Shown here in pieces: positions 38,455 to 63,860 of a stretch of 64,000 nt of DNA. The notes under the pieces are model-generated. The model worked only from the letters and a program-made list of their open reading frames with translations. It was not told the origin of the DNA and ran no database searches. Origin of the DNA: Cinclus cinclus (taxonomy: Eukaryota > Chordata > Aves > Passeriformes > Cinclidae); assembly GCF_963662255.1 (NCBI RefSeq), contig NC_085059.1, forward strand, positions 2,900,501-2,964,500, written 5' to 3'. Positions within the stretch are counted from its first letter, which is position 1. Every line of letters begins with the position of its first letter. The translations under genes and the position numbers were made by a program.

Positions 38455-38824
38455 TGCCATGGCAGGGACACCTGCCACTGTCCCACGCTGCTCCAGCCTG
38501 GCCTTGGGCACTGCCAGGGATCCAGGGGCAGCCACAGCTGCTCTGGGCACCCTGTGCCAGCCCTGCCCATCCTGCCAGGGAACACTTCCTGACCCATATC
38601 CCATCTGCAGCTGCTCCCAGTGCCAACAGGTGTCACTGCATGGCCTTGGGATGATGGATCAAGAGAAAGCCCCAAACTTTGAGCAGAGCTCCCAGTGCCT
38701 GTGCTGGGGACATGCCACCCACCTGCCCCTCAAGCACTCAGCTGCCTCGCAGCCAAATGGAGTGTCCAACGGGTAAAGTACTCCCAGAGGATCAAACCCT
38801 GGTCACTGCACCAATGACAAGGTC

Positions 38825-38864
38825 TTTATTGGGAATAGAAATGTCGAAGCACAGCGACATTTCT
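38825..38864 (-). promoter_or_regulatory. Antisense AATAAA plus hairpin, unit 1
   Basis: On the minus strand a hairpin (arms 38,837-38,846 and 38,855-38,864, AGAAATGTCG/CGACATTTCT, 8-nt loop) lies just upstream of AATAAA (38,825-38,830). This would suit the 3' end of a minus-strand transcript. The arm is 10 bp here, because a T interrupts the extension that pairs in units 2-4. Confidence 0.45.
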
Positions 38865-39452
38865 TTTCCAAGCAGGAGACGCTGATCCTGTGCCGGCAGC
38901 GCAGGGATGCTGTTATTGCTGGTCCTCATTTCATCCCTTTATCAGCTGCAGGGGCACCAGGACAGGCTGTGGTCTCCCAGGGCAGCTCTGAGTGACATTG
39001 CTGTCCCTCCCCACCAGCTGTCCCCAGCCCTGGGTGCTGCCACGTGCCCCAGCCTCTGCAGCCCAAAGCACCTGGAGATCCCCCTGAGCATCAGCGATCA
39101 GGGCCGCTGCAATCAGCCTGCTGACCCAAAACCTCAAGTGCTGCCACAAGAAAAGCAGCTGATTCATTGATACCTCGGAATTTCATGTCTCAATGCAAGG
39201 ACAGGAAGCACCCCTATGCCACCAAATCGTTGCTAAGGGCTTGCAAGCCTCAACGCGGAGATTTCAGCGTTGGACACGCAGTCAGGGCAAGGGTAAATCC
39301 ACACAGAGATGACTCAGAAATTCCAAAACACACATCATGTTGTTCTTGACGCCTTTCTTGTTGGCTCAAGGGCTGTTTCCGTGGGCCACGCTTGCACAGA
39401 AAGAAAGAAAGGAAGTGCAGCTGCTGAGGAACATCTCCATGCCCTCAGCAGG

Positions 39453-39622
39453 TTTTGGTGCCTTTGCTGCAGGGCCGCTCCTGTCAGAGCCCCCTCTCTG
39501 CTGCTGACACCTTTGCTCTTGGGGACACCAGCCCAGGAACACCAGCAGGGCCCAGGGTTGGGTCACGGGGACCCCCCTGTGCACAGGGACTCCCAGCCCC
39601 GTGGCTGTGCCAGCACCCCCAG
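39453..39622 (-). repeat. Intra-unit inverted repeat, arm A (unit 1)
   Basis: The reverse complement of this segment aligns, with many substitutions, to 41,635-41,803. Shared words include GGGGTGCTGGCACAGCCA, AGCAGAGAGGGAGCTCTGAC (one variant base) and GGCCCTGCAGCAA. The match is also visible after translation (CQSPLSAADTFALGDT here against QSSLSAGDSFALADT on the opposite strand). Equivalent arms exist in units 2-4. Confidence 0.7.
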
Positions 39623-40375
39623 AAACACCAAGATCTGGCAGCACTTTGCTCCGCTGCTCTTTCCGCACACGGAACCATCTCCTTCCTTTGCCATCCCAGG
39701 AAAATTCAACCTCTACCTCAGCCAAAGATCATTTCCTACACATGGCTGATCAGAAATGTTCTTCTGGACTTCCTCCACCAAAACCACCCCCGCATGCCCA
39801 CAAGACATTCCAGGGCCATCGGGAAACCCTCCACAAACACTGCGCAGGCACCCAGGACCACGGGCTTTCCATCTCTGCCATTCAGGCTCCCTGCGCTGCT
39901 CCTGGTCATTTTCTCCTCCTCTCTCCATAACTTTGGGAACCACAGAGCTCCCAGGCTTTGCCAATTCCCAAGGCCACTGCCATCCTTGACTTCTTGGACA
40001 CCCCCAGGGCTGTGGACAGACGCCCCTGTGTTTTCCCGCAGAAGATGTTAAGAGCCAACAGGAAGTCACAAAGTTACGGAGGCTGCTAGATCACCTCCCC
40101 GAAAGAAAAAGCTGAAAAAGCTGTGGCTGCTGAGGAAGGGGAGGTGAAGCTTGTGAGGCAAGCTCAGAGCACATTCACAATGAATGAAAGGTGGAAGAGG
40201 GAGAGTGACTCTTCCTCAGGAAGTCTACTGATGGGACAAGGGGGAATGGGATCAAACGGAAAGACAGTTGGAAGAGATCTGATGCTGGAAAGAAGTTCTT
40301 TAATCTGAGGCTGCTTGTCCCTGACACAGGGAGCTGTGCACATGTGGGTGCCCCATCCCCAGCAACATCCAAGGC

Positions 40376-40483
40376 CACATTGGACAGGGTTGAAGTGCTG
40401 GGAGCTTGCTCAGGTTGGAACCAGATGATTTTTAGGGTCTCTTCCAAGCCAAACCACTCAAGGACTTCATGGTTCCATGACGT
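40376..40483 (+). mobile_element. CR1: CR1 3' remnant upstream of the ORF (unit 1)
   Basis: GTTGGAACCAGATGATTTTT, AGGGTCTCTTCCAAGCCAAA and CCACTCAAGGACTTCATGGT match the sense 3' end of CR1. The same remnant sits at about 45,068-45,175, 49,813-49,920 and 54,650-54,757 in the other units. Confidence 0.7.
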
Positions 40484-40515
40484 CCATCTCCAAGAGAGGA
40501 GTGGCCCTGAAGCTT

Positions 40516-40529
40516 CTGTGACATCACAG
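40516..40529. promoter_or_regulatory. Palindromic CRE-like word upstream of the ORF
   Basis: CTGTGACATCACAG is a perfect 6+2+6 inverted repeat and contains TGACATCA, one base from the CREB/ATF consensus. It lies about 115 bp upstream of the ATG and is kept in units 2 (45,208), 3 (49,953) and 4 (54,790). A promoter role is only inferred, and no TATA box is evident. Confidence 0.3.
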
Positions 40530-40590
40530 GGCCCAGAGTGCTCCAGGTGGAAGGTCCAGGGCCTGGAGACCAGCACAACAGACAGTTCAC

Positions 40591-40710
40591 CTGCTGCCAG
40601 CACTCAGTTCTCCCCCACTCTTCGCTCTCTGCCACGGTGCCAAGATGTTCCTGCTGCCAGTACTCGCTTGTCCCCCGCTCTTCGTTCTCTGCCTTGGTGC
40701 TGAGCTGCTC
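40591..40710 (+). repeat. 60-bp tandem duplication at the ORF start (unit 1)
   Basis: Copy 1 is 40,591-40,650 and copy 2 is 40,651-40,710, with about 48 of 60 positions identical by my count. A partial third copy (CTGCTGCCGG) follows. The start codon lies near the end of copy 1 (AAGATGTTC); copy 2 has GAGCTGCTC at that place. Because 60 is a multiple of three, the duplication built the hydrophobic N-terminus in frame. Confidence 0.85.
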
Positions 40711-41103
40711 CTGCTGCCGGGACTTTTCCTGCACTTCTACTGCACCATCAACACCAACAGCATGAGCGCTCCTGTCCCAGCAGAGGTACAGTGCCATACC
40801 AGGGAGGGGGGCAGCCCTGACTGCCAGGGCAGGCTGCAGCCCTGTGGGGATGGATGCTGGGGACAGGGACCCCAAGTGACATTGTGCTGTCTCATGCAGA
40901 CTGCCAGAGACACCATTGAGGATATGGAGGTGGATGAGCAGGAGGACACCGAGCCCATGGAAGTGGACGAATATGATGAGACTGAGCCCATGGAAGTGGA
41001 TGAGCAGGATGACACCGAGCCCATGGAAGTAGATGAATATGATGAGACTGAGCCCATGGACGTCGATGAGAAGGACAAGGAAGAGCCCGTGATCCTGGCA
41101 TGA
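40645..41103 (+). CDS. Unrecognised protein with hydrophobic N-terminus and acidic 11-residue repeats, copy 1
   Basis: The 152-codon ORF starts at an ATG with A at -3. Residues 1-31 are hydrophobic (MFLLPVLACPPLFVLCLG...), like a signal peptide or membrane anchor. The tail is acidic: four 11-residue repeats of the form MEVDE(Q/Y)D(D/E)TEP from 40,927, then a degenerate fifth ending EEPVILA. Bases 40,786-40,899 look like a 114-nt intron (GAG|GTACAG to ATGCAG|ACT). Splicing would leave the frame intact and give 114 residues. A 3'-UTR-like segment with AATAAA follows. Four of four copies in the array are open, although the copies are so similar that this alone is weak evidence of selection. I recognise no family. 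It could be a lineage-specific gene or a non-coding transcript with a fortuitous ORF. Confidence 0.5.
   Translation: MFLLPVLACPPLFVLCLGAELLLLPGLFLHFYCTINTNSMSAPVPAEVQCHTREGGSPDCQGRLQPCGDGCWGQGPQVTLCCLMQTARDTIEDMEVDEQEDTEPMEVDEYDETEPMEVDEQDDTEPMEVDEYDETEPMDVDEKDKEEPVILA
40927..41091 (+). repeat. Coding minisatellite, 33-bp unit (unit 1: 4 full + 1 degenerate)
   Basis: 33-bp units encode alternating EVDEQDDTEPM-like and EVDEYDETEPM-like 11-mers, so the higher-order period is 66 bp. Unit 1 has two such 66-bp pairs, units 2-4 have three. This accounts for the 152- versus 174-codon ORF lengths. Confidence 0.95.
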
Positions 41104-41230
41104 GGATGGAGGCCCAGGAGCTGGACAACCTGATGCTCCCCTGCCCTGCCCACAGGCAGTGCCCAGCCTGGGGCGGGGCTGGCTGGCTCTCCTCAGGGAC
41201 ATGGTGCTCAAGGAAGTCCTGCTCTGCTGC

Positions 41231-41266
41231 TTCCTTCCTTCCTTCCTTCCTTCCTTCCTTCCTTCC
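41231..41266. repeat. (TTCC)9 microsatellite, unit 1
   Basis: 36 bp of perfect TTCC lying about 125 bp after the ORF stop. The orthologous tracts are 24, 116 and 184 bp in units 2, 3 and 4. Confidence 0.95.
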
Positions 41267-41308
41267 CTCCCAGACTGACAGGGATAATGGGCATCGATAG
41301 GGCCCCAC

Positions 41309-41533
41309 TGTAAATATGTTCAGCATGTTCGAGGCTTTTTTTTATAGGAACAATTTGAAGATTGTTAGCCTAAAGGTCCCAGAATGTTAATCTATAGCTT
41401 CTAGATTTTTACAGTATAAGTCCCAGATTGTTAACAGTATAGTCTTCCTTGTAAATATGTTCTAGAGACTGTTGTTGTTGTTGTTAGAAGTAAATATGTT
41501 CTTCAAATGTTTGGCTGAACTTTGTTCAATAAA
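41309..41533 (+). promoter_or_regulatory. 3'-UTR-like segment: two TGTAAATA motifs and AATAAA (unit 1)
   Basis: TGTAAATA at 41,309-41,316 and 41,450-41,457 fits the Pumilio-family consensus UGUANAUA exactly. A near copy (AGTAAATA) lies at about 41,489. The poly(A) signal AATAAA is at 41,528-41,533. The segment is AT-rich against a GC-rich background, as expected for a 3' UTR of the upstream ORF. Confidence 0.5.
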
Positions 41534-41634
41534 TACTATTTCTTATTAAAACCTCGCCTCTCTTTGCAATTCCTTTGGGCAACGTTTGCACAGTGCTGGT
41601 TTCCACTTGCTCATGGTTCCTGGGGCTGCAGGTC

Positions 41635-41803
41635 CCTGGGGGTGCTGGCACAGCCAGCCCTGGCTGGGGGTACCCTGTGCAGGGGGGTCCCACTGAGCCA
41701 GCACTGCTGTTCCTGGGGCACAGCAGTGTCCCCGAGGGCAAAGCTGTCACCAGCAGAGAGGGAGCTCTGACAGCAGCAGGCCCTGCAGCAACGCTACCAA
41801 AGC
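41635..41803 (+). repeat. Intra-unit inverted repeat, arm B (unit 1)
   Basis: Partner of arm A (39,453-39,622), about 2 kb apart and in opposite orientation. In unit 4 the retroviral insertion falls within the last bases of this arm. Confidence 0.7.
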
Positions 41804-42736
41804 AAAGGAAACCTCCTGACACCCTTCCTGCTGCAGCCACAGGGACTCCTGGGCAGGAGCCAGCATCAGGCACAGGGATGCAACATCCACCTCCATGCTC
41901 TGAAGGTCTCGACAGCCTTGGCAAGTCTGGGACCTGCACCCGGGCTGCTGCAGGGGCTGATGTTTAAGGCTTGCAGCCTCCAAAGCCTCTGGGCTTTGCT
42001 TCCCCCGCTGCCTTCCATTGCCCTGTGCCCAGGATCCTCACCCTGCCCGTGTTCCTGCTGCTGCCAGCAGCCCCCAGAGCCCCTCACTCCCTGAGCATCC
42101 CCATCACACGGAGCACTGGCAAATCCCACACGCTTTGCAAAGCAAACTCCCCCACAGTAACCAAACCACTCTTTGGTCAGAGGGTGCCAAGGGGAAGCTC
42201 AGCACCAGCTGCCGTTTAAAGCATGCTTTCAAAAGTGGGTTCAGGCACTCTGGCAGTGCCTGCTGTGCAGCTGAGGCTGTGGGGACACAGCACTGGCTCA
42301 GGCCAGCCCTCAGCCCCTCACAGCTCATGCCAAGGGCCCAGCTCACAAAGCAGTTTCACACCACTTGCTGCAGCTATTTCAAAGGCCTAAATGTCATTCG
42401 CAGGAGCCATTTAGTTGCCAACTCAGTGTCCGTGTCCTGGCAGGAGAAGCCACCAAGGGGCCTCTGCATGTGCACTCAGGGCACTTCCACTGCCATCCCA
42501 AAGGGATCGCAAAGGACAGGGCTCTTCTTTCAGCACTGCTGAGCTCCTCACGCAGCATTGAAGTCTCAGGAAGAGACAAGAATTGAGTGCACCAGGGAAG
42601 CTGGCCTCCAAGAAAAGGCATCAATCCCACGGCCCACCCAAGCCAACGGCCTGCATGTCTGTACCTTCTCCTCCTTCTCTCTTCTCTGCTGTCACTTTGC
42701 CCCTTCTCTCTGTCCGGGAGCTTGGCCTCTCAGACA

Positions 42737-42742
42737 AATAAA
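42737..42742 (+). promoter_or_regulatory. Second plus-strand AATAAA in the unit
   Basis: AATAAA in CAGACAAATAAAAGATGTGC follows a pyrimidine-rich stretch and a 174-codon ORF (42,018-42,542) of unknown reality. It is repeated at 47,482 and 52,319. It could end another transcript or be chance. Confidence 0.25.
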
Positions 42743-43524
42743 AGATGTGCATCCTCACCTAGGCACGGCATAGATGTCTTACACAACTGTCCCTTCTTCC
42801 CCAACAGCTGCAAATCCTACAGCTGCCAGACCTCATCCCTTGCTCCTAGAAAGGGAGAGAAGACTTTCCATTCTAATCCATTGCCCAGCCCTAAGTCAAC
42901 GACACAGTCAGTAGAAATAGCTGTGAAATCCCCGGCAGGAACCTGCCAGAAGAGCTACAGCTGTGGAGGGGGAAGCAGCAAACAACAACCCCCAACACTG
43001 CTTTGGACTCCTTACCAGCTAAAACATATCCCACTCCTGGGATTTTTTTCCATTTTTTGTTAACCACAACTACCATCAATTTAAATCCATTGAAAACAAG
43101 ATCACAGGAGGGGTTGCGTGGAAAGGAACCTTCAATCCCACCCAGTGCAAGCTTTGCCATGGCAGGGACACCTGCCACTGTCCCACGCTGCTCCAGCCTG
43201 GCCTTGGGCACTGCCAGGGATCCAGGGGCAGCCATAGCTGCTCTGGGCACCCTGTGCCAGCCCTGCCCATCCTGCCAGGGAACACTTCCTGACCCATATC
43301 CCATCTGCAGCTGCTCCCAGTGCCAACAGGTGTCACTGCATGGCCTTGGGATGATGGATCAAGAGAAAGCCCCAAACTTTGAGCAGAGCTCCCAGGGCCT
43401 GTGCTGGGGACGTGCCACCCACCTGCCCCTCAAGCACTCAGCTGCCTCGCAGCCAGATGGAGTGTCCAACGGGTAAAGTACTCCCAGAGGATCAAACCCT
43501 GGTCACTGCACCAATGACAAGGTC

Positions 43525-43567
43525 TTTATTGGGAAAAGAAATGTCGAAGCACAGCGACATTTCTTTT
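43525..43567 (-). promoter_or_regulatory. Antisense AATAAA plus 13-bp perfect hairpin, unit 2
   Basis: AATAAA on the minus strand (43,525-43,530). The adjacent arms AAAAGAAATGTCG (43,534-43,546) and CGACATTTCTTTT (43,555-43,567) pair over 13 bp with an 8-nt loop. Confidence 0.45.
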
Positions 43568-45336
43568 CCAAGCAGGAGACGCTGATCCTGTGCCGGCAGC
43601 GCAGGGATGCTGTTATTGCTGGTCCTCATTTCATGCCTTTATCAGCTGCAGGGGCACCAGGACAGGCTGTGGTCTCCCAGGGCAGCTCTGAGTGACACTG
43701 CTGTCCCCACCAGCTGTCCCCAGCCCTGGGTGCTGCCACGTGCCCCAGCCTCTGCGGCCCAAAGCACCTGGAGATCCCCCTGAGCATCAGCGATCAGGGC
43801 CGCTGCAATCAGCCTGCCGTCCCAAAACCTCAAGTGCTGCCACAAGAAAAGCAGCTGATTCATTGATACCTCGGAATTTCATGTCTCAATGCAAGGACAG
43901 GAAGCACCCCTATGCCACCAAATCGTTGCTAAGGGCTTGCAAGCCTCAACGCGGAGATTTCAGCGTTGGACACGCAGTCAGGGCAAGGGTAAATCCACAC
44001 AGAGATGACACAGAAATTCCAAAACACACATCATGTTGTTCTTGACGCCTTTCTTGTTGGCTCAAGGGCTGTTTCCGTGGGCCACGCTTGCACAGAAAGA
44101 AAGGAAGTGCAGCTGCTGAGGAACATCTCCATGCCCTCAGCAGGTTTTGGTGCCTTTGCTGCAGGGCCGCTCCTGTCAGAGCCCCCTCTCTGCTGCTGAC
44201 ACCTTTGCTCTTGGGGACACCAGCCCAGGAACACCAGCAGGGCCCAGGGTTGGCTCAGGGGGACCCCCCTGTGCACAGGGACTCCCAGCCCCGTGGCTGT
44301 GCCAGCACCCCCAGAAACACCAAGATCTGGCAGCACTTTGCTCCGCTGCTCTTTCCGCACACGGAACCATCTCCTTCCTTTGCCATCCCAGGAAAATTCA
44401 ACCTCTACCTCAGCCAAAGATCATTTCCTACACATGCCTGATCAGAAATATTCTTCTGCACTTCCTCCACCAAAACCACCCCCGCATGCCCACAAGACAT
44501 TCCAGGGCCATCGGGAAACCCTCCACAAACACTGCGCAGGCACCCAGGACCACGGGCTTTCCATCTCTGCCATTCAGGCTCCCTGCGCTGCTCCTGGTCA
44601 TTTTCTCCTCCTCTCTCCATAACTTTGGGAACCACAGAGCTCCCAGGCTTTGCCAATTCCCAAGGCCACTGCCATCCTTGACTTCTTGGACACCCCCAGG
44701 GCTGTGGACAGACACCCCTGTGTTTTCCCGCAGAAGATGTTAAGAGCCAACAGGAAGTCACAAAGTTACGGAGGCTGCTAGATCACCTCCCCAAAAGAAA
44801 AAGCTGAAAAAGCTGTGGCTGCTGAGGAAGGGGAGGTGAAGCTTGTGTGGCAAGCTCAGAGCACATTCACAATGAATGAAAGGTGGAAGAGGGAGGGTGA
44901 CTCTTCCTCAGGAAGTCTACTGATGGGACAAGGGGGAATGGGATCAAACGGAAAGAGAGTTGGAAGAGATTTGATGCTGGAAAGAAGTTCTTTAATCTGA
45001 GGCTGCTTGTCCCTGACACAGGGAGCTGTGCACATGTGGGTGCCCCATCCCCAGCAACATCCAAGGCCACATTGGACAGGGTTGAAGTGCTGGGAGCTTG
45101 CTCAGGTTGGAACCAGATGATTTTTAGGGTCTCTTCCAAGCCAAACCACTCAAGGACTTCATGGTTCTATGGCGTCCATCTCCAAGAGAGGAGTGGCCCT
45201 GAAGCTTCTGTGACATCACAGGGCCCAGAGTGCTGCAGGTGGAAGGTCCAGGGCCTGGAGACCAGCACAACAGACAGTTCACCTGCTGCCAGCACTCAGT
45301 TCTCCCCCACTCTTCGCTCTCTGCCACGGTGCCAAG

Positions 45337-45861
45337 ATGTTCCCGCTGCCAGTACTCGCTTGTCCCCCGCTCTTCGTTCTCTGCCTTGGTGCTGAGCTGC
45401 TCCTGCTGCCGGGACTTTTCCTGCACTTCTACTGCACCATCAACACCAACAGCATGAGCGCTCCTGTCCCAGTGGAGGTACAGTGCCATCCCAGGGAGGG
45501 GGGCAGACCTGAGTGCCAGGGCAGGCTGCAGCCCTGTGGGGATGGATGCTGGGGACAGGGACCCCAAGTGACATTGTGCTGCCTCATGCAGACTGCCAGA
45601 GACACCATTGAGGATATGGAGGTGGATGAGCAGGATGACACCGAGCCCATGGAAGTGGACGAATATGATGAGACTGAGCCCATGGAAGTGGATGAGCAGG
45701 ATGACACCGAGCCCATGGAAGTGGACGAATATGATGAGACTGAGCCCATGGAAGTGGATGAGCAGGATGACACCGAGCCCATGGAAGTAGATGAATATGA
45801 TGAGACTGAGCCCATGGACGTCGATGAGAAGGACAAGGAAGAGCCCGTGATCCTGGCATGA
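45337..45861 (+). CDS. Unrecognised acidic-repeat protein, copy 2
   Basis: 174 codons. Same architecture as copy 1, with six full 11-residue repeats plus the degenerate last one. Residue 3 is Pro instead of Leu, which puts a proline at the start of the hydrophobic stretch. The intron-like segment (about 45,478-45,591) keeps GTACAG and ATGCAG ends. It shows more replacement differences between copies (for example R and E where the others have S and D) than the flanking exonic parts, consistent with its being spliced out. The 3' region has AATAAA at 46,274-46,279 and TGTAAATA at 46,055-46,062. No family recognised. Confidence 0.5.
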   Translation: MFPLPVLACPPLFVLCLGAELLLLPGLFLHFYCTINTNSMSAPVPVEVQCHPREGGRPECQGRLQPCGDGCWGQGPQVTLCCLMQTARDTIEDMEVDEQDDTEPMEVDEYDETEPMEVDEQDDTEPMEVDEYDETEPMEVDEQDDTEPMEVDEYDETEPMDVDEKDKEEPVILA

Positions 45862-45988
45862 GGATGGAGGCCCAGGAGCAGGACAACCTGATGCTCCCCT
45901 GCCCTGCCCACAGGCAGTGCCCAGCCTGGGGCGGGGCTGGCTGGCTCTCCTCAGGGACATGGTGCTCAAGGAAGTCCTGCTCTGCTGC

Positions 45989-46012
45989 TTCCTTCCTTCC
46001 TTCCTTCCTTCC
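45989..46012. repeat. (TTCC)6 microsatellite, unit 2
   Basis: 24 bp, the shortest of the four orthologous tracts. Confidence 0.95.
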
Positions 46013-48269
46013 CTCCCAGACTGACAGGGATAATGGGCATCGATAGGGCCCCACTGTAAATATGTTCAGCATGTTCGAGGCTTTTTTTTATAGGAACAAT
46101 TTGAAGATTGTTAGCCTAAAGGTCCCAGAATGTTAATCTATAGCTTCTAGATTTTTACAGTATAAGTCCCAGATTGTTAACAGTATAGTCTTCCTTGTAA
46201 ATATGTTCTAGAGACTGTTGTTGTTGTTGTTAGAAGTAAATATGTTCTTCAAATGTTTGGCTGAACTTTGTTCAATAAATACTATTTCTTATTAAAACCT
46301 CGCCTCTCTTTGCAATTCCTTTGGGCAACGTTTGCACAGTGCTGGTTTCCACTTGCTCATGGTTCCTGGAGCTGCAGGTCCCTGGGGGTGCTGGCACAGC
46401 CAGCCCTGGCTGGGGGTCCCTGTGCAGGGGGGTCCCACTGAGCCAGCACTGCTGTTCCTGGGGCACAGCAGTGTCCCCGAGGGCAAAGCTGTCACCAGCA
46501 GAGAGGGAGCTCTGACAGCAGCAGGCCCTGCAGCAACGCTACCAAAGCAAAGGAAACCTCCTGACACCCTTCCTGCTGCGGCCACAGGGACTCCTGGGCA
46601 GGAGCCAGCATCAGGCACAGGGATGCAACATCCACCTCCATGCTCTGAAGGTCTCAACAGCCTTGGCAAGTCTGGGACCTGCACCCGGGCTGCTGCAGGG
46701 GCTGATGTTTAAGGCTTGCAGCCTCCAAAGCCTCTGGGCTTTGCTTCCCCCGCTGCCTTCCATTGCTCTGTGCCCAGGTTCCTCACCCTGCCCGTGTTCC
46801 TGCTGCTGCCAGCAGCCCCCAGAGCCCCTCACTCCCTGAGCATCCCCATCACAGGGAGCACCGGCAAATCCCACACGCTTCGCAAAGCAAACTCCCCCAC
46901 AGTAACCAAACCACTCTTTGGTCAGAGGGTGCCAAGGGGAAGCTCAGCACCAGCTGCTGTTTAAAGCATGCTTTCAAAAGTGGGTTCAGGCACTCTGGCA
47001 GTGCCTGCTGCGCAGCTGAGGCTGTGGGGACACAGCACTGGCTCAGGCCAGCCCTCAGCCCCTCACAGCTCATGCCAAGGGCCCAGCTCACAAAGCAGTT
47101 TCACACCACTTGCTGCAGCTATTTCAAAGGCCTAAATGTCATTCGCAGGAGCCATTTAGTTGCCAACTCAGTGTCCGTGTCCTGGCAGGAGAAGCCACCA
47201 AGGGGCCTCTGCATGTGCACTCAGGGCACTTCCACTGCCATCCCAAAGGGATCGCAAAAGACAGGGCTCTTCTTTCAGCACTGCTGAGCTCCTCACGCAG
47301 CATTGAAGTCTCAGGAAGAGACAAGAATTGAGTGCACCAGGGAAGCTGGCCTCCAAGAAAAGGCATCAATCCCACGGCCCACCCAAGCCAACGGCCTGCA
47401 TGTCTGTACCTTCTCCTCCTTCTCTCTTCTCTGCTGTCACTTTGCCCCTTCTCTCTGTCCGGGAGCTTGGCCTCTCAGACAAATAAAAGATGTGCATCCT
47501 CACCTAGGCACGGCATAGATGTCTTACACAACTGTCCCTTCTTCCCCGACAGCTGCAAATCCTACAGCTGCCAGACCTCATCCCTTGCTCCTAGAAAGGG
47601 AGACAAGACTTTCCATTCTAATCCATTGCCCAGCCCTAAGTCAACGACACAGTCAGTAGAAATAGCTGTGAAATCCCCGGCAGGAACCTGCCAGAAGAGC
47701 TACAGCTGTGGAGGGGGAAGCAGCAAACAACAACCCCCAACACTGCTTTGGACTCCTTACCAGCTAAAACATATCCCACTCCTGGGATTTTTTTCCATTT
47801 TTTGTTAACCACAACTACCATCAATTTAAATCCATTGAAAACAAGATCACAGGAGGGGTTGCGTGGAAAGGAACCTTCAATCCCACCTAGTGCAAGCTTT
47901 GCCATGGCAGGGACACCTGCCACTGTCCCACGCTGCTCCAGCCTGGCCTTGGGCACTGCCAGGGATCCAGGGGCAGCCACAGCTGCTCTGGGCACCCTGT
48001 GCCAGCCCTGCCCATCCTGCCAGGGAACACTTGCTGACCCATATCCCATCTGCAGCTGCTCCCAGTGCCAACAGGTGTCACTGCATGGCCTTGGGATGAT
48101 GGATCAAGAGAAAGCCCCAAACTTTGAGCAGAGCTCCCAGGGCCTGTGCTGGGGACGTGCCACCCACCTGCCCCTCAAGCACTCAGCTGCCTCGCAGCCA
48201 GATGGAGTGTCCAACGGGTAAAGTACTCCCAGAGGATCAAACCCTGGTCACTGCACCAATGACAAGGTC

Positions 48270-48312
48270 TTTATTGGGAAAAGAAATGTCGAAGCACAGC
48301 GACATTTCTTTT
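48270..48312 (-). promoter_or_regulatory. Antisense AATAAA plus 13-bp perfect hairpin, unit 3
   Basis: AATAAA (minus) at 48,270-48,275. Hairpin arms at 48,279-48,291 and 48,300-48,312, identical to unit 2. Confidence 0.45.
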
Positions 48313-50081
48313 CCAAGCAGGAGACGCTGATCCTGTGCCGGCAGCGCAGGGATGCTGTTATTGCTGGTCCTCATTTCATGCCTTTATCAGCTGCAGGGGC
48401 ACCAGGACAGGCTGTGGTCTCCCAGGGCAGCTCTGAGTGACACTGCTGTCCCCACCAGCTGTCCCCAGCCCTGGGTGCTGCCACGTGCCCCAGCCTCTGC
48501 GGCCCAAAGCACCTGGAGATCCCCCTGAGCATCAGCGATCAGGGCCGCTGCAATCAGCCTGCTGTCCCAAAACCTCAAGTGCTGCCACAAGAAAAGCAGC
48601 TGATTCATTGATACCTCGGAATTTCATGTCTCAATGCAAGGACAGGAAGCACCCCTATGCCACCAAATCGTTGCTAAGGGCTTGCAAGCCTCAACGCGGA
48701 GATTTCAGCGTTGGACACGCAGTCAGGGCAAGGGTAAATCCACACAGAGATGACACAGAAATTCCAAAACACACATCATGTTGTTCTTGACGCCTTTCTT
48801 GTTGGCTCAAGGGCTGTTTCCGTGGGCCACGCTTGCACAGAAAGAAAGGAAGTGCAGCTGCTGAGGAACATCTCCATGCCCTCAGCAGGTTTTGGTGCCT
48901 TTGCTGCAGGGCCGCTCCTGTCAGAGCCCCCTCTCTGCTGCTGACACCTTTGCTCTTGGGGACACCAGCCCAGGAACACCAGCAGGGCCCAGGGTTGGCT
49001 CAGGGGGACCCCCCTGTGCACAGGGACTCCCAGCCCCGTGGCTGTGCCAGCACCCCCAGAAACACCAAGATCTGGCAGCACTTTGCTCCGCTGCTCTTTC
49101 CGCACACGGAACCATCTCCTTCCTTTGCCATCCCAGGAAAATTCAACCTCTACCTCAGCCAAAGATCATTTCCTACACATGCCTGATCAGAAATATTCTT
49201 CTGCACTTCCTCCACCAAAACCACCCCCGCATGCCCACAAGACATTCCAGGGCCATCGGGAAACCCTCCACAAACACTGCGCAGGCACCCAGGACCACGG
49301 GCTTTCCATCTCTGCCATTCAGGCTCCCTGCGCTGCTCCTGGTCATTTTCTCCTCCTCTCTCCATAACTTTGGGAACCACAGAGCTCCCAGGCTTTGCCA
49401 ATTCCCAAGGCCACTGCCATCCTTGACTTCTTGGACACCCCCAGGGCTGTGGACAGACACCCCTGTGTTTTCCCGCAGAAGATGTTAAGAGCCAACAGGA
49501 AGTCACAAAGTTACGGAGGCTGCTAGATCACCTCCCCAAAAGAAAAAGCTGAAAAAGCTGTGGCTGCTGAGGAAGGGGAGGTGAAGCTTGTGTGGCAAGC
49601 TCAGAGCACATTCACAATGAATGAAAGGTGGAAGAGGGAGAGTGACTCTTCCTCAGGAAGTCTACTGATGGGACAAGGGGGAATGGGATCAAACGGAAAG
49701 AGAGTTGGAAGAGATTTGATGCTGGAAAGAAGTTCTTTAATCTGAGGCTGCTTGTCCCTGACACAGGGAGCTGTGCACATGTGGGTGCCCCATCCCCAGC
49801 AACATCCAAGGCCACATTGGACAGGGTTGAAGTGCTGGGAGCTTGCTCAGGTTGGAACCAGATGATTTTTAGGGTCTCTTCCAAGCCAAACCACTCAAGG
49901 ATTGGATGGTTCTATGGCGTCCATCTCCAAGAGAGGAGTGGCCCTGAAGCTTCTGTGACATCACAGGGCCCAGAGTGCTGCAGGTGGAAGGTCCAGGGCC
50001 TGGAGACCAGCACAACAGACAGTTCACCTGCTGCCAGCACTCAGTTCTCCCCCACTCTTCGCTCTCTGCCACGGTGCCAAG

Positions 50082-50606
50082 ATGTTCCTGCTGCCAGTAC
50101 TCGCTTGTCCCCCGCTCTTCGTTCTCTGCCTTGGTGCTGAGCTGCTCCTGCTGCCGGGACTTTTCCTGCACTTCTACTGCACCATCAACACCAACAGCAT
50201 GAGCGCTCCTGTCCCAGTGGAGGTACAGTGCCATCCCAGGGAGGGGGGCAGCCCGGACTGCCAGGGCAGGCTGCAGCCCTGTGGGGATGGATGCTGGGGA
50301 CAGGGACCCCAAGTGACATTGTGCTGTCTCATGCAGACTGCCAGAGACACCATTGAGGATATGGAGGTGGATGAGCAGGATGACACCGAGCCCATGGAAG
50401 TGGACGAATATGATGAGACTGAGCCCATGGAAGTGGATGAGCAGGATGACACCGAGCCCATGGAAGTGGACGAATATGATGAGACTGAGCCCATGGAAGT
50501 GGATGAGCAGGATGACACCGAGCCCATGGAAGTAGATGAATATGATGAGACTGAGCCCATGGACATCGATGAGAAGGACAAGGAAGAGCCCGTGATCCTG
50601 GCATGA
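50082..50606 (+). CDS. Unrecognised acidic-repeat protein, copy 3
   Basis: 174 codons, hydrophobic residues 1-31, six 11-residue acidic repeats and a degenerate seventh with MDIDE in place of MDVDE. The intron-like segment is about 50,223-50,336. The AATAAA signal is at 51,111-51,116. A long antisense ORF (346 codons, 49,869-50,909) covers the locus, but it is produced by the repeats and the TTCC tract. Function unknown. Confidence 0.5.
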   Translation: MFLLPVLACPPLFVLCLGAELLLLPGLFLHFYCTINTNSMSAPVPVEVQCHPREGGSPDCQGRLQPCGDGCWGQGPQVTLCCLMQTARDTIEDMEVDEQDDTEPMEVDEYDETEPMEVDEQDDTEPMEVDEYDETEPMEVDEQDDTEPMEVDEYDETEPMDIDEKDKEEPVILA

Positions 50607-50733
50607 GGATGGAGGCCCAGGAGCAGGACAACCTGATGCTCCCCTGCCCTGCCCACAGGCAGTGCCCAGCCTGGGGCGGGGCTGGCTGGCTCTCCTCAGG
50701 GACATGGTGCTCAAGGAAGTCCTGCTCTGCTGC

Positions 50734-50849
50734 TTCCTTCCTTCCTTCCTTCCTTCCTTCCTTCCTTCCTTCCTTCCTTCCTTCCTTCCTTCCTTCCTTC
50801 CTTCCTTCCTTCCTTCCTTCCTTCCTTCCTTCCTTCCTTCCTTCCTTCC
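50734..50849. repeat. (TTCC)29 microsatellite, unit 3
   Basis: 116 bp of uninterrupted TTCC. Confidence 0.95.
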
Positions 50850-53106
50850 CTCCCAGACTGACAGGGATAATGGGCATCGATAGGGCCCCACTGTAAATAT
50901 GTTCAGCATGTTCGAGGCTTTTTTTTATAGGAACAATTTGAAGATTGTTAGCCTAAAGGTCCCAGAATGTTAATCTATAGCTTCTAGATTTTTACAGTAT
51001 AAGTCCCAGATTGTTAACAGTATAGTCTTCCTTGTAAATATGTTCTAGAGACTGTTGTTGTTGTTGTTAGAAGTAAATATGTTCTTCAAATGTTTGGCTG
51101 AACTTTGTTCAATAAATACTATTTCTTATTAAAACCTCGCCTCTCTTTGCAATTCCTTTGGGCAACGTTTGCACAGTGCTGGTTTCCACTTGCTCATGGT
51201 TCCTGGAGCTGCAGGTCCCTGGGGGTGCTGGCACAGCCAGCCCTGGCTGAGGGTCCCTGTGCAGGGGGGTCCCACTGAGCCAGCACTGCTGTTCCTGGGG
51301 CACAGCAGTGTCCGCGAGGGCAAAGCTGTCACCAGCAGAGAGGGAGCTCTGACAGCAGCAGGCCCTGCAGCAACGCCACCAAAGCAAAGGAAACCTCCTG
51401 ACACCCTTCCTGCTGCAGCCACAGGGACTCCTGGGCAGGAGCCAGCATCAGGCACAGGGATGCAACATCCACCTCCATGCTCTGAAGGTCTCGACAGCCT
51501 TGGCAAGTCTGGGACCTGCACCCGGGCTGCTGCAGGGGCTGATGTTTAAGGCTTGCAGCCTCCAAAGCCTCTGGGCTTTGCTTCCCCCGCTGCCTTCCAT
51601 TGCCCTGTGCCCAGGATCCTCACCCTGCCCGTGTTCCTGCTGCTGCCAGCAGCCCCCAGAGCCCCTCACTCCCTGAGCATCCCCATCACAGGGAGCACTG
51701 GCAAATCCCACACGCTTCGCAAAGCAAACTCCCCCACAGTAACCAAACCACTCTTTGGTCAGAGGGTGCCAAGGGGAAGCTCAGCACCAGCTGCTGTTTA
51801 AAGCATGCTTTCAAAAGTGGGTTCAGGCACTCTGGCAGTGCCTGCTGCGCAGCTGAGGCTGTGGGGACACAGCACTGGCTCAGGCCAGCCCTCAGCCCCT
51901 CACAGCTCATGCCAAGGGCCCAGCTCACAAAGCAGTTTCACACCACTTGCTGCAGCTATTTCAAAGGCCTAAATGTCATTGGCAGGAGCCATTTAGTTGC
52001 CAACTCAGTGTCCGTGTCCTGGCAGGAGAAGCCACCAAGGGGCCTCTGCATGTGCACTCAGGGCACTTCCACTGCCATCCCAAAGGGATCGCAAAGGACA
52101 GGGCTCTTCTTTCAGCACTGCTGAGCTCCTCACGCAGCATTGAAGTCTCAGGAAGAGACAAGAATTGAGTGCACCAGGGAAGCTGGCCTCCAAGAAAAGG
52201 CATCAATCCCACGGCCCACCCAAGCCAACGGCCTGCATGTCTGTACCTTCTCCTCCTTCTCTCTTCTCTGCTGTCACTTTGCCCCTTCTCTCTGTCCGGG
52301 AGCTTGGCCTCTCAGACAAATAAAAGATGTGCATCCTCACCTAGGCACGGCATAGATGTCTTACACAACTGTCCCTTCTTCCCCGACAGCTGCAAATCCT
52401 ACAGCTGCCAGACCTCATCCCTTGCTCCTAGAAAGGGAGAGAAGACTTTCCATTCTAATCCATTGCCCAGCCCTAAGTCAACGACACAGTCAGTAGAAAT
52501 AGCTGTGAAATCCCCGGCAGGAACCTGCCAGAAGAGCTACAGCTGTGGAGGGGGAAGCAGCTAACAACAACCCCCAACACTGCTTTGGACTCCTTACCAG
52601 CTAAAACATATCCCACTCCTGGGATTTTTTTCCATTTTTTGTTAACCACAACTACCATCAATTTAAATCCATTGAAAACAAGATCACAGGAGGGGTTGCG
52701 TGGAAAGGAACCTTCAATCCCACCCAGTGCAAGCTTTGCCATGGCAGGGACACCTGCCACTGTCCCACGCTGCTCCAGCCTGGCCTTGGGCACTGCCAGG
52801 GATCCAGGGGCAGCCACAGCTGCTCTGGGCACCCTGTGCCAGCCCTGCCCATCCTGCCAGGGAACACTTGCTGACCCATATCCCATCTGCAGCTGCTCCC
52901 AGTGCCAACAGGTGTCACTGCATGGCCTTGGGATGATGGATCAAGAGAAAGCCCCAAACTTTGAGCAGAGCTCCCAGGGCCTGTGCTGGGGACATGCCAC
53001 CCACCTGCCCCTCAAGCACTCAGCTGCCTCGCCACCAGATGGAGTGTCCAACGGGTAAAGTACTCCCAGAGGATCAAACCCTGGTCACTGCACCAATGAC
53101 AAGGTC

Positions 53107-53149
53107 TTTATTGGGAAAAGAAATGTCGAAGCACAGCGACATTTCTTTT
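53107..53149 (-). promoter_or_regulatory. Antisense AATAAA plus 13-bp perfect hairpin, unit 4
   Basis: AATAAA (minus) at 53,107-53,112. Arms at 53,116-53,128 and 53,137-53,149, unchanged from units 2 and 3. Confidence 0.45.
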
Positions 53150-54918
53150 CCAAGCAGGAGACGCTGATCCTGTGCCGGCAGCGCAGGGATGCTGTTATTG
53201 CTGGTCCTCATTTCATGCCTTTATCAGCTGCAGGGGCACCAGGACAGGCTGTGGTCTCCCAGGGCAGCTCTGAGTGACACTGCTGTCCCCACCAGCTGTC
53301 CCCAGCCCTGGGTGCTGCCACGTGCCCCAGCCTCTGCAGCCCAAAGCACCTGGAGATCCCCCTGAGCATCAGCGATCAGGGCCGCTGCAATCAGCCTGCT
53401 GACCCAAAACCTCAAGTGATGCCACAAGAAAAGCAGCTGATTCATTGATACCTCGAAATTTCATGTCTCAATGCAAGGACAGGAAGCACCCCTATGCCAC
53501 CAAATCGTTGCTAAGGGCTTGCAAGCCTCAACGCGGAGATTTCAGCGTTGGACACGCAGTCAGGGCAAGGGTAAATCCACACAGAGATGACACAGAAATT
53601 CCAAAACACACATCATGTTGTTCTTGACGCCTTTCTTGTTGGCTCAAGGGCTGTTTCCGTGGGCCACGCTTGCACAGAAAGAAAGGAAGTGCAGCTGCTG
53701 AGGAACATCTCCATGCCCTCAGCAGGTTTTGGTGCCTTTGCTGCAGGGCCGCTCCTGTCAGAGCCCCCTCTCTGCTGCTGACACCTTTGCTCTTGGGGAC
53801 ACCAGCCCAGGAACACCAGCAGGGCCCAGGGTTGGCTCAGGGGGACCCCCCTGTGCACAGGGACTCCCAGCCCCGTGGCTGTGCCAGCACCCCCAGAAAC
53901 ACCAAGATCTGGCAGCACTTTGCTCCGCTGCTCTTTCCGCACACGGAACCATCTCCTTCCTTTGCCATCCCAGGAAAATTCAACCTCTACCTCAGCCAAA
54001 GATCATTTCCTACACATGCCTGATCAGAAATGTTCTTCTGCACTTCCTCCACCAAAACCACCCCCGCATGCCCACAAGACATTCCAGGGCCATCGGGAAA
54101 CCCTCCACAAACACTGCGCAGGCACCCAGGACCACGGGCTTTCCATCTCTGCCATTCAGGCTCCCTGCGCTGCTCCTGGTCATTTTCTCCTCCTCTCTCC
54201 ATAACTTTGGGAACCACAGAGCTCCCAGGCTTTGCCAATTCCCAAGGCCACTGCCATCCTTGACTTCTTGGACACCCCCAGGGCTGTGGACAGACACCCC
54301 TGTGTTTTCCCGCAGAAGATGTTAAGAGCCAACTGGAAGCCACAAAGTTACTGAGGCTGCTAGATCACCTCCCCAAAAGAAAAAGCTGAAAAAGCTGTGG
54401 CTGCTGAGGAAGGGGAGGTGAAGCTTGTGTGGCAAGCTCAGAGCATATTCACAGTGAATGAAAGGTGGAAGAGGGAGGGTGACTCTTCCTCAGGAAGTCT
54501 ACTGATGGGACAAGGGGGAATGGGATCAAACGGAAAGAGAGTTGGAAGAGATTTGATGCTGGAAAGAAGTTCTTTAATCTGAGGCTGCTTGTCCCTGACA
54601 CAGGGAGCTGTGCACATGTGGGTGCCCCATCCCCAGCAACATCCAAGGCCACATTGGACAGGGTTGAAGTGCTGGGAGCTTGCTCAGGTTGGAACCAGAT
54701 GATTTTTAGGGTCTCTTCCAAGCCAAACCACTCAAGGATTGGATGGTTCTATGGCGTCCATCTCCAAGAGAGGAGTGGCCCTGAAGCTTCTGTGACATCA
54801 CAGGGCCCAGAGTGCTCCAGGTGGAAGGTCCAGGGCCTGGAGACCAGCACAACAGACAGTTCACCTGCTGCCAGCACTCAGTTCTCCCCCACTCTTCGCT
54901 CTCTGCCACGGTGCCAAG

Positions 54919-55443
54919 ATGTTCCTGCTGCCAGTACTCGCTTGTCCCCCGCTCTTCGTTCTCTGCCTTGGTGCTGAGCTGCTCCTGCTGCCGGGACTTT
55001 TCCTGCACTTCTACTGCACCATCAACACCAACAGCATGAGCGCTCCTGTCCCAGTGGAGGTAGAGTGCCATCCCAGGGAGGGGGGCAGCCCGGACTGCCA
55101 GGGCAGGCTGCAGCCCTGTGGGGATGGATGCTGGGGACAGGGACCCCAAGTGACATTGTGCTGCCTCATGCAGACTGCCAGAGACACCATTGAGGATATG
55201 GAGGTGGATGAGCAGGATGACACCGAGCCCATGGAAGTGGATGAATATGATGAGACTGAGCCCATGGAAGTGGATGAGCAGGATGACACCGAGCCCATGG
55301 AAGTGGACGAATATGATGAGACTGAGCCCATGGAAGTGGATGAACAGGATGACACCGAGCCCATGGAAGTGGATGAATATGATGAGACTGAGCCCATGGA
55401 CGTCGATGAGAAGGACAAAGAAGAGCCCGTGATCCTGGCATGA
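54919..55443 (+). CDS. Unrecognised acidic-repeat protein, copy 4
   Basis: 174 codons with the same layout. The putative donor reads GAG|GTAGAG instead of GTACAG, still an acceptable donor, and the segment is about 55,060-55,173. All acidic repeats are intact. The downstream poly(A) signal is altered to AATAAC (56,013-56,018), although ATTAAA at about 56,031 could substitute. This copy lies about 840 bp upstream of the provirus in the same orientation, so readthrough into the LTR is possible. Function unknown. Confidence 0.5.
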   Translation: MFLLPVLACPPLFVLCLGAELLLLPGLFLHFYCTINTNSMSAPVPVEVECHPREGGSPDCQGRLQPCGDGCWGQGPQVTLCCLMQTARDTIEDMEVDEQDDTEPMEVDEYDETEPMEVDEQDDTEPMEVDEYDETEPMEVDEQDDTEPMEVDEYDETEPMDVDEKDKEEPVILA

Positions 55444-55570
55444 GGATGGAGCCCCAGGAGCAGGACAACCTGATGCTCCCCTGCCCTGCCCACAGGCAGT
55501 GCCCAGCCTGGGGCGGGGCTGGCTGGCTCTCCTCAGGGACATGGTACTCAAGGAAGTCCTGCTCTGCTGC

Positions 55571-55754
55571 TTCCTTCCTTCCTTCCTTCCTTCCTTCCTT
55601 CCTTCCTTCCTTCCTTCCTTCCTTCCTTCCTTCCTTCCTTCCTTCCTTCCTTCCTTCCTCCCTCCCTTCCTTCCTTCCTTCCTTCCTTCCTTCCTTCCTT
55701 CCTTCCTTCCTTCCTTCCTTCCTTCCTTACTTCCTTCCTTCCTTCCTTCCTTCC
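55571..55754. repeat. (TTCC)n microsatellite, unit 4 (184 bp)
   Basis: The longest tract, with interruptions (CCTCCCTCCC at about 55,657 and a TTAC unit at about 55,727). Confidence 0.95.
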
Positions 55755-56657
55755 CTCCCAGACTGACAGGGATAATGGGCATCGATAGGGCCCCACTGTA
55801 AATATGTTCAGCATGTTCGAGGCTTTTTTTTATAGGAACAATTTGAAGATTGTTAGCCTAAAGGTCCCAGAATGTTAATCTATAGCTTCTAGATTTTTAC
55901 AGTATAAGTCCCAGATTGTTAACAGTATAGTCTTCCTTGTAAATATGTTCTAGAGATTGTTGTTGTTGTTAGAAGTAAATATGTTCTTCAAATGTTTGGC
56001 TGAACTTTGTTCAATAACTACTATTTCTTATTAAAACCTCGCCTCTCTTTGCAATTCCTTTGGGCAACGTTTGCACAGTGCTGGTTTCCACTTGCTCATG
56101 GTTCCTGGGGCTGCAGGTCCCTGGGGGTGCTGGCACAGCCAGCCCTGGCTGGGGCTCCCCGTGCATGGGGGTCCCACTGAGCCAGCACTGCTGTTCCTGG
56201 GGCACAGCAGTGTCCCCAAGGGCAAAGCTCTCACCAGCAGAGAGGGAGCTCTGACAGCAGCAGGCCCTGCAGCAACGCCGCTGTGGGAATCGAGCTGGCT
56301 GACATCCATAGCCAGACCAGTGTTTTTGATGCGTTGCCCCTTGGCCCCAGACCTTGGAGGGCATTTGTTTAAGTTTATAACAGTTCCTAGTCAAGTTGTC
56401 AAAGGTTTTAAAACTGTTCCTGGTCAAGCTTTATAATCCTCATTTCCCATTCATTGCCTCTATTCCCCGTTATGTCATCCCTTTTCTCTTCCCAGTTCTG
56501 GAAAGTTCTTGTATCCTTGTACCCCCATTGGTTTATGTTCACCGCATTGTTCCACCCATCCTACCTTACTGGTTACTGTCCCATATTACTCCTCCCTTGC
56601 ACCACTTTTCCCTTTACCCATTGGATTATCATCCTGGACCCACCTCTCATCATCCCT

Positions 56658-56663
56658 TATAAA
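56658..56663 (+). promoter_or_regulatory. LTR TATA box
   Basis: TATAAA in CCCTTATAAATACCCTGG, about 100 bp upstream of the LTR poly(A) signal. This places the cap site (U3/R border) near 56,690. Confidence 0.75.
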
Positions 56664-56757
56664 TACCCTGGATTTTCCCTCAGCCTTGTCTTCTACCCTT
56701 TGCTCTTATAGTGTGTGCACGTGTTTTGGGCCTTGTCCCGCATTTTCTTTTATGATT

Positions 56758-56763
56758 ATTAAA
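56758..56763 (+). terminator. LTR polyadenylation signal
   Basis: ATTAAA in ATGATTATTAAAGTCTTTAG, the common variant of AATAAA, within the predicted R region. Confidence 0.6.
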
Positions 56764-56906
56764 GTCTTTAGTTGCAGAGTTGTGGTGTGGACCCGTTCCA
56801 CATTTTGCCACCTTGGCCCTGATATCAGGGGAACTTTAGAGGTTGGTCGGGGAGACTGCCCTCGAGTCTCGCGCCTTAAGTATTGAAAAACAAAACCCCC
56901 GACAGG

Positions 56907-56924
56907 TGGCCCCTGAACAGGGAC
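56907..56924 (+). other. Primer binding site
   Basis: TGGCCCCTGAACAGGGAC follows the LTR end by two bases. It resembles the lysine-tRNA type site (TGG...GAACAGGGAC) with two internal differences. The primer tRNA is therefore probably, but not certainly, a tRNA-Lys. Confidence 0.75.
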
Positions 56925-57199
56925 CCTGATATTCAGGGCACCTTGTTGCAGAGGTAGGACTGTGTCCCCGGGAGTGTGGCTGCGCCGGGGCCCGGCGGAG
57001 TTGTCGGCGAAGAGGGACCTCGTCTGGACACCCGGGGAGCCAGCGAGGGACGTCAACAGAAGCACCTGCAGAATACAGGTGTGTTTGGGGACACCCGACA
57101 TAATATAGCCCTCTTTGCTGCCCTGTTTTAAAATACGGGTCCTAGTCTTGGCTAGGGGCGTCTCGGCAGCTAGATCCCCTAAGGAGGATTCGAAGGAAG

Positions 57200-59214: not shown

Positions 59215-59500
59215 AATTCCACCAGGTGCCCGGCTGGAGTTGGTGAGTGCTAAACCTGTAGTGCTGACTGACTGTTCCACACATTCAGTTTCAACAGGAC
59301 AACTTGGGCTTGAAGATCGGCCCCACCAAGTGTTAATTTTAGGCAACTGTAGATCAAAGACTGAGGGATTTTTTGTCCTTCCTTCCGTATTGTCTGTTAC
59401 ATCTTCCCAGGAAATGACTGTTTTAGCCCTAAGCCCTGACCCTCCTTGCTTTATTCCCGAAGGACTGCCTATAGCCCAAGCGATTATGTTGCCAGATGAA
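59215..59500 (+). pseudogene. dUTPase-like domain of pro
   Basis: dUTPases hydrolyse dUTP. Betaretroviruses encode one at the start of pro. The fold signature is visible in order: a PPGARLELVSAK start, VSTGQLG, an ILGNCRSK element where the family has its Gly-Arg-Ser-Ser-type motif, FFVLPSVLS where the catalytic Asp motif is expected, and IPEGLPIAQAIMLP at the end. The Asp of the catalytic motif and the second Ser of the Arg-Ser motif seem absent, so the domain was probably catalytically dead or structural. It lies in the same ORF as the nucleocapsid and protease. Confidence 0.65.
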
Positions 59501-59539
59501 ACGGAGGAAGAGGATTCAGAATCCTTTGTCATGTGGACC

Positions 59540-59878
59540 CAGGTTATAAGTAAGGACAGGCCTAAAATAACCTGTATCCTAGAGGCTAATGGACAGAGGG
59601 TAACTCTTAAGGGAACTGTTGACACTGGATCGGACGTTACTGTAATTTCTACCTCAAGATGGCCCTCAGGGTGGGCACTTACACCAGCTTCTGGAGTCCT
59701 TATGGGGATTGGAGGGGAAAGCACTAGTCTGAAAAGCATGAATTTGATCAAGATAGAGGGACCTAAGGGTCGTGTTGCCACCACCAGACCCTTCATAGTG
59801 AAAACACGAACGCCTGTCGTCCTGTGGGGAAGGGATATTTAGACTGAATGGGGAGCGCGTTTGGAAATGGATTTTTAA
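59540..59878 (+). pseudogene. pro: Retroviral aspartic protease
   Basis: It cleaves Gag and Gag-Pol during virion maturation and works as a homodimer. The catalytic motif is Asp-Thr-Gly (DTGSDVTVIS, D at 59,621-59,623). A flap-like GIGGES follows at about 59,705, and the terminal LWGRD helix motif is present. A TAG at 59,840-59,842 stops the ORF directly after LWGRDI, but the frame then reads a further ten or so protease-tail-like codons to TAA at 59,876. The TAG is therefore likely a decay mutation and the TAA the original pro end. Confidence 0.85.
59869..59875 (+). promoter_or_regulatory. G GAT TTT ribosomal slip site (pro-pol)
   Basis: In the protease frame the codons GAT and TTT directly precede TAA (59,876-59,878). 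A -1 slip moves into the pol frame, which reads on into RT. The heptamer resembles the G GAU UUA site used between pro and pol by mouse mammary tumour virus. Confidence 0.6.
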
Positions 59879-62542: not shown

Positions 62543-62581
62543 CTATTTCACAGCTCCTCATCGCAAGTCATCGTTGGGACC

Positions 62582-62760
62582 GTGACCTCTGAAAGACTCT
62601 CAATCATTGCACTTGTTCTCTTTAATGTCCTACCCTTTGCCAGCAGCAGAATTGTTCAACAGCCAAAACAGAACATTTGGATTACCCTGGCCAACATAAC
62701 GCACCAAGAGACGTTATGTCTATCTGTTGCCAACCCCAAACAACCCCTTTTCAACATGCC
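62582..62760 (+). pseudogene. env: env: signal peptide and N-terminus of the surface subunit
   Basis: The ORF opens with a charged start and a hydrophobic core (IIALVLFNVLPFASS), a plausible signal peptide. NIWITLANITHQETLCLSVA follows, the start of an avian retroviral surface subunit. It leaves frame near 62,750, and the surface sequence continues in the next frame. Confidence 0.8.
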
Positions 62761-63830: not shown

Positions 63831-63848
63831 TATTTTTATAGTTAAACA

Positions 63849-63860
63849 GAAAGGGGAAGA
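63849..63860 (+). other. Polypurine tract
   Basis: GAAAGGGGAAGA lies directly before the TGTGGG of the 3' LTR and serves as plus-strand primer in reverse transcription. Confidence 0.85.

Follow-up and report, generated by a model that had tools for sequence, protein, structure and literature searches.

A probable protein-coding megasatellite with several hundred units in the passerine Cinclus cinclus

Coding megasatellites are already known as a kind of locus, but they are few and poorly understood. In humans, RS447 is a single-locus array of 20-103 head-to-tail units, each of 4.7 kb (PMC3018141), and contains the USP17 gene (PMC2588610); three of the four human macrosatellites studied are highly expressed in testis (PMC3018141). 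In mice, the copy numbers of Slx and Sly have been described as an arms race (PMC7743899). In passerines, the PAK3L gene is present in 200 copies on the Z chromosome of the zebra finch, four of them with frameshifts, and at least seven songbird PAK3L genes are reported to be expressed, in testis in particular (PMC13060935). The FAM118A locus on chromosome 1A of the great tit is amplified as well, with a nested 630-bp repeat covering exon 3 (PMC12786263). Here we analysed 64,000 nucleotides of the Cinclus cinclus genome (the window hereafter), positions 2,900,501 to 2,964,500 of contig NC_085059.1 (C17), which contain the left edge of an array of 4.7-kb units, each with a small predicted gene.

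The C17 locus is probably a protein-coding megasatellite, with its 4.7-kb unit present in hundreds of head-to-tail copies in two neighbouring arrays, denoted A and B. Units of several kb follow one another head to tail at one locus, with one predicted gene in each. The locus resembles the RS447/USP17 megasatellite in unit size, head-to-tail order and the presence of a gene inside the unit, but the genes are unrelated; the C17 locus comprises two arrays with a larger number of copies, and its protein has no known domain. Like PAK3L, this is a songbird gene in hundreds of copies; PAK3L, however, is a kinase gene that occurs in 10 clusters, and the two arrays for which a description is given have units of ~59 and 268 kb, whereas C17 harbours an orphan gene in 4.7-kb units. 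The locus shares with great tit FAM118A the large tandem amplification of coding sequence in a passerine, but it involves another gene and has one whole gene per 4.7-kb unit rather than a 630-bp exon repeat. The testis expression of human macrosatellites and of PAK3L bears on the array gene by analogy only. No description of the gene, the family or the array was found in the literature searched, which included few subscription papers. The locus would add to the coding megasatellites one with several hundred copies of a gene without known domain.

The window contains four array B units on the plus strand, delimited by self-BLAST and alignment: unit 1, the first of the array (38455..43154, 4700 bp), unit 2 (43155..47899, 4745 bp), unit 3 (47900..52736, 4837 bp) and unit 4, interrupted by a provirus (52737..56281, 3545 bp). 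Their pairwise identities of 98.4-99.5% confirm the four head-to-tail units, with the same limits and lengths, that the initial annotation had recognised by eye. The length differences were correctly ascribed there to a coding repeat and a TTCC tract, as they mostly correspond to a 66-bp coding repeat, absent from unit 1, and to the TTCC/CTTC tract. Each unit also has, as annotated, one plus-strand open reading frame of common design followed by an AT-rich tail that resembles a 3' untranslated region (UTR) and contains AATAAA. Frames of similar length are open elsewhere in the units, on both strands. Array B picks up again ~8.2 kb past the provirus cut in unit 4, and more copies run on outside the window at about 96-99% identity. 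As the copies continue far outside the window, chance is ruled out as the source of the repeat pattern. Each unit also harbours an inverted repeat of ~170 bp with ~79-80% identity (39454-39622 / 41636-41801 in the window). The unit boundary (38443-38605 and the unit starts) lies inside a repeat element also present in the flanks, which we take to be CR1-like and where the first unequal exchange may have taken place.

The extent of the arrays was analysed in the 1.17-Gb assembly (277 contigs), in which C17 measures 21.6 Mb. Using a 601-bp unit probe, all 40 scored matches (the best 40 of 408) were found on the plus strand of C17, at 98-100% identity. Similarly, the 174-residue frame yielded 150 scored matches (the best 150 of 896, ranked by score), all stop-free and on the plus strand of C17. 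The 150 scored matches of the distant relative P0001 (the best 150 of 1275) are also all on the plus strand of C17, 129 of them in array A and 21 in array B. These locations rest on the best-scored candidates only and are compatible with additional copies outside C17. Coverage of C17 is based on 20 fetched 10-kb stretches that were mapped, with sampled stretches only past 4.59 Mb, to 4.76 Mb. Array B spans positions 2,938,955 to about 4,584,257 (~1.65 Mb), with the window units at its left edge; beyond its end, the stretches sampled to 4.76 Mb contain short unit fragments only. Array A lies next to it, at 1.886-2.550 Mb. We placed at least 221 gene copies in array B, with room in the gaps for ~116 further ones, and at least 129 in its sister array A, where ~11 further are possible. 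The 'four-copy' array of the initial annotation is thus only the window's share of a much larger one.

Of 20 predicted array B places that were fetched, 10 contained a whole gene and eight no unit; in the other two a unit was present, but its gene lay at or past the end of the stretch. Six of the eight places without a unit match the provirus of the window at 98.9-99.4%. Because half of the 20 places held a whole gene, we estimate that array B contains roughly 280-290 copies, a rough figure since the predicted places are a non-random sample. The array also has larger blocks, in that patterns of copy spacing recur at offsets that include 94, 192 and 290 kb. Over the gene and 400 bp of 5' flank, array B copies diverge by 1.4-1.65% at all distances, with essentially no decay with distance and slightly lower values for far pairs (Spearman -0.08, 977 pairs). 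Two copies 678 kb apart, at C17 positions 3050491 and 3728377, have the intron stop and the protein reading in common, which points to the copying of blocks over long distances. A second, distinct insertion of ~7.2 kb was also found in array B (L014:6185 to L015:3358), flanked on either side by the same ~500 bp of unit sequence.

The gene in each unit is likely to be shorter than the open frame and composed of two exons, with the predicted organization MSAPVPVE / 114-bp intron / TARDTIED-(MEVDE repeats)-DEKDKEEPVILA. In unit 1, coding exon 1 (40762..40785, plus strand) codes for MSAPVPAE and begins at the same ATG as P0011, P0013 and P0035, three of the passerine relatives described below. It is followed by an in-frame 114-bp intron (40786..40899), a multiple of three in length, with GT and AG ends (GTACAG at its start and GCAG at its end), and by coding exon 2 with its 33/66-bp coding repeats and TGA stop (40900..41103). 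The 3' UTR (41104..41552, with an estimated cleavage site) contains a CTTC tract, two copies of TGTAAATA, presumably tied to Pumilio, and AATAAA at 41528. Coding exons 1 and 2 are at 45454..45477 and 45592..45861 in unit 2, 50199..50222 and 50337..50606 in unit 3, and 55036..55059 and 55174..55443 in unit 4, all on the plus strand. An ATG upstream in unit 1, at 40645, probably lies in the 5' UTR. In some units, the TTCC tract of the 3' UTR reaches ~640-800 bp (L015:6873-7673, L017:6683-7325 and L019:3035-3829), versus 29 bp in unit 2 of the window.

We read 45 array B copies, 25 from contiguous stretches, 10 at predicted spots and 10 from score-ranked lists, skipping one copy cut by a stretch end. 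GT, AG and TGA are present in all 45 and the ATG in 44. The spliced frame is intact in 43 copies, the other two having lost the start in one case and acquired a stop in the other, and none of the 45 has a frameshift. Two of the three stops that interrupt the unspliced frames fall within the intron. The 15-base context of AATAAA is exact in 31 of the 34 copies with enough sequence, and those 31 carry two TGTAAATA elements. The 22 array A copies were all taken from the score-ranked P0001 list. None has an internal stop in exon 2, which in one copy is cut short by the end of the stretch. Exon 1 encodes MSAPVPAE in all 20 copies in which it was read, and the 114-bp intron was found in 21. The initial annotation had taken the open frame itself as the gene. 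The amplified plus-strand gene stands, but codons 1-39 and the 114-bp intron stretch seem not to be coding. The long unspliced frame was discarded as a candidate coding sequence because its codons 1-47 and the intron have no coding signal (omega 0.77 and 1.09) and because the second ATG serves as the start in three relatives. The signal peptide considered for the hydrophobic N-terminus of this frame was dropped with it.

The predicted protein has 97 residues in 26 of the 45 array B copies and 75 in 12, with a range of 53-163. The 97-residue form is 47% acidic, with a net charge of -43 and an isoelectric point of about 4. Array B proteins have a regular 11/22-residue repeat, mostly MEVDEQDDTEP alternating with MEVDEYDETEP, and the C-terminus KDKEEPVILA; the last residue is Ala in all 45. 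In array A, the repeats are MEVDEQDDTEP, MEVDEKDDTEP and MEVDENDETEP, and the proteins end with LVLG or VILG, with a final Gly in the copies that reach the stop. The protein remains as unrecognised as it was in the initial annotation, with relatives that are uncharacterised or whose names find no support in their sequence: no Pfam family was detected at E up to 0.1 for any of seven proteins scanned (the gene product and six relatives), and NCBIfam gave no match for P0011 or P0013. For P0011, structure assignment returned nothing, and matches to PDB sequences were at chance level only (best E 0.08). The AlphaFold model of P0011 has a mean predicted local distance difference test score (pLDDT) of 62 and a predicted template modelling score (pTM) of 0.15, a low confidence as would be expected for a disordered protein.

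Protein searches gave 2 proteins (E up to 0.01), 27 (E up to 1) and 28 (E up to 0.001, from scoring of the 7987 best candidates). Ten of the 28 matches have an organism name, and all ten are passerine, two of them by taxonomy look-up. A protein search, one of the checks proposed in the initial annotation, identified passerine relatives. They are named 'ring-infected erythrocyte surface antigen-like' in Passer, 'histone deacetylase HDT2-like isoform X3' and LOC101806841 in Ficedula, LOC111944444 in Cyanistes, 'LAS1L-like' in Taeniopygia and 'ASF1-like' in Geospiza (P0038). We rejected the HDT2, ASF1, LAS1L and ring-infected erythrocyte surface antigen names, which stem from automatic similarity, as no Pfam domain was found in the six relatives scanned. 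On visual inspection, P0002, P0012, P0016, P0017 and P0019 were judged to be probably unrelated proteins with EPMEVD repeats and were left out, and P0018, an olfactory receptor (E 0.036), was dismissed as a chance match.

P0011 (Passer, 76 residues, MSTAAPVE-TARDT...) and P0013 (Ficedula, 74 residues, MSTALPEE-AARDT...) correspond to the array gene with the intron stretch removed and with a start at the second ATG. P0035 (Taeniopygia) has the same form, with MITFVLRK as exon 1, and P0030 (Cyanistes) and P0038 (Geospiza) have the same junction with a longer N-terminus (MSAFIPKK and MLTFVPMK inside). Seen at the protein level, the 114-bp intron is thus missing from five passerine models, while P0001, P0003 and P0014 read through it, a form also seen in LOC101806841 (Ficedula). 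An eight-codon exon 1 that starts at the same ATG and ends with Glu or Lys is found here and in P0011, P0013 and P0035. Exon 2 starts with ARDTxE-MEVD and ends with DEKDxEEPxxLG, with a final Ala in array B; the DEKD/DGKD..LG end is retained in P0011, P0013, P0030 and P0035. The array gene and the passerine models thus share small size, acidity, splice point, MEVD repeats and a related C-terminus, the latter not with the ASF1-like P0038. They differ in that the Cinclus gene is present in hundreds of copies whereas the relatives are known as protein models, and in that array B has the KDKEEPVILA end and the regular 11/22-residue repeat.

The provirus that interrupts unit 4 occupies 56282..64000 on the plus strand, with its 5' long terminal repeat (LTR) at 56282-56895. 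It has interrupted frames that match Gag_p24, protease, reverse transcriptase, RNase H, integrase and Avian_gp85. Copies 98.9-99.4% alike were found at nine places, the window, L011, L017/L018, L033, L040, L045, L050, L051 and L052, the last six being represented by an internal 1.4 kb only. At three places (the window with L009, L011, and L017 with L018) the junctions are shared, the left one near unit position 3340 and the right one near 1593. One provirus was amplified along with array B. The unlike left and right positions suggest a later rearrangement. As its two LTRs are ~5.5-6.4% apart and yet the copies are ~99% alike, the provirus probably entered before array B was last made uniform. 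The array had been annotated as recent, which is not borne out: the LTR divergence, together with the ~7-12% that separates arrays A and B, indicates that the amplification has a history and that the array was kept uniform.

The case for a gene rests mainly on the structure shared between species and on a frame and signals that both arrays retain. A and B have in common the start, splice sites, TARDTIED, stop, TGTAAATA and AATAAA; they are 88-93% identical in long aligned pieces covering most of the unit, whereas one piece, over the 3' tail, has 76% identity. Within array B, exon 2 has 15 synonymous, 15 missense and one stop variant (omega about 0.28, p about 6e-4), versus an omega of 1.09 in the intron and a non-significant 0.77 in exon 1. 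Among the 34 frames of at least 80 codons tested in the unit, the lowest p was 0.021, for the whole gene frame and for the antisense frame over it. A number of observations weigh against a coding function. One antisense frame of exon 2 has nearly as low an omega (0.32, p 0.002). Ten of the 31 exon-2 variants, nine of them synonymous, can be explained by exchange between internal repeats; without these, 6 synonymous, 14 missense and one stop variant remain (p 0.27). The synonymous excess is thus not an independent signal of selection. Between A and B, coding sites are no less diverged than intron or upstream sites (3-6/45 in the C-terminal part and 9-10% in the repeats, versus 5-7/114 in the intron and 7% in 893 upstream sites), and four of the five changed codons alter the amino acid (93 non-repeat coding bases, 31 codons). 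The 400-bp 5' flank has a single indel and 33-bp repeat changes preserve the frame automatically, so that the absence of frameshifts is weak evidence. Among the relatives, the first exons of Hirundo P0029 and Zosterops P0031 differ, P0030 and P0038 start upstream, the end of P0038 differs, and the annotated models may be ab initio. The comparison of A and B weakens the gene reading and strengthens an alternative that we consider somewhat unlikely, namely that a non-coding satellite captured a once-functional gene, with most copies silent and the frame persisting through exchange. The near-independence of divergence from distance means that uniformity alone could hold frames open, no purifying selection signal holds within B or between A and B, and the interrupted provirus was amplified too. 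Nevertheless, in the copies read, two arrays ~7-12% apart both retain start, splice sites, frame and stop, and much of the model is preserved in the relatives from other passerines, despite their far lower identity.

The locus might also be selfish, with its copy number reflecting an arms race through meiotic cheating or a contest with a sex-linked or germline-restricted target. By analogy, this would fit the extreme copy number of a small protein whose repeat tract varies in length (53-163 residues), the two diverged arrays next to each other, the predominance of amino-acid changes between A and B in the non-repeat part, and the existence in songbirds of amplified testis-expressed genes, as reported for PAK3L (PMC13060935); we regard it as unlikely. 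It is improbable that the main product of the array is regulatory RNA, such as PIWI-interacting RNA (piRNA) or a long RNA, and not a protein. Being long and uniform and containing a provirus, the array resembles small-RNA source loci, but the relatives are similar at the protein level. False duplication in the assembly is very unlikely to have inflated the copy number. Such large arrays are difficult to assemble and one 200-N gap is present (L020), but the copies are ~1.5% apart and vary in repeat number, tract length and insertions, and A and B represent separate sequence types. The exact copy number depends on one assembly.

If the locus is a protein-coding megasatellite, the gene would be transcribed and spliced, each unit carrying a separate promoter and poly(A) site and contributing to the dose of one protein, and unequal exchange and conversion would keep the copies uniform and change their number. 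Very tentatively, and by analogy, the product may be a disordered, acidic nuclear protein that binds basic partners, for instance histones or basic sperm proteins, in germ cells, with dosage competition raising the copy number. The initial annotation had likewise raised a dosage-amplified or reproductive gene as a candidate. It is rather doubtful that the locus represents an undescribed passerine family for a disordered acidic protein, with some 400 copies in two adjacent megasatellites of one chromosome, whose number was raised by a conflict over dosage in the germline, be it meiotic drive, competition among sperm or an interaction with the germline-restricted chromosome; if so, few coding arrays in vertebrates would be larger. 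The array, in birds with unusual germline genetics, offers a test of whether extreme tandem amplification reflects selected dosage, conflict or satellite drift. Collapsed assemblies of other passerines may conceal similar arrays.

Elsewhere in the window, two CATCC tracts (20377-20487 and 33624-33698) are followed by similar sequence, with 92% identity over 169 bp.

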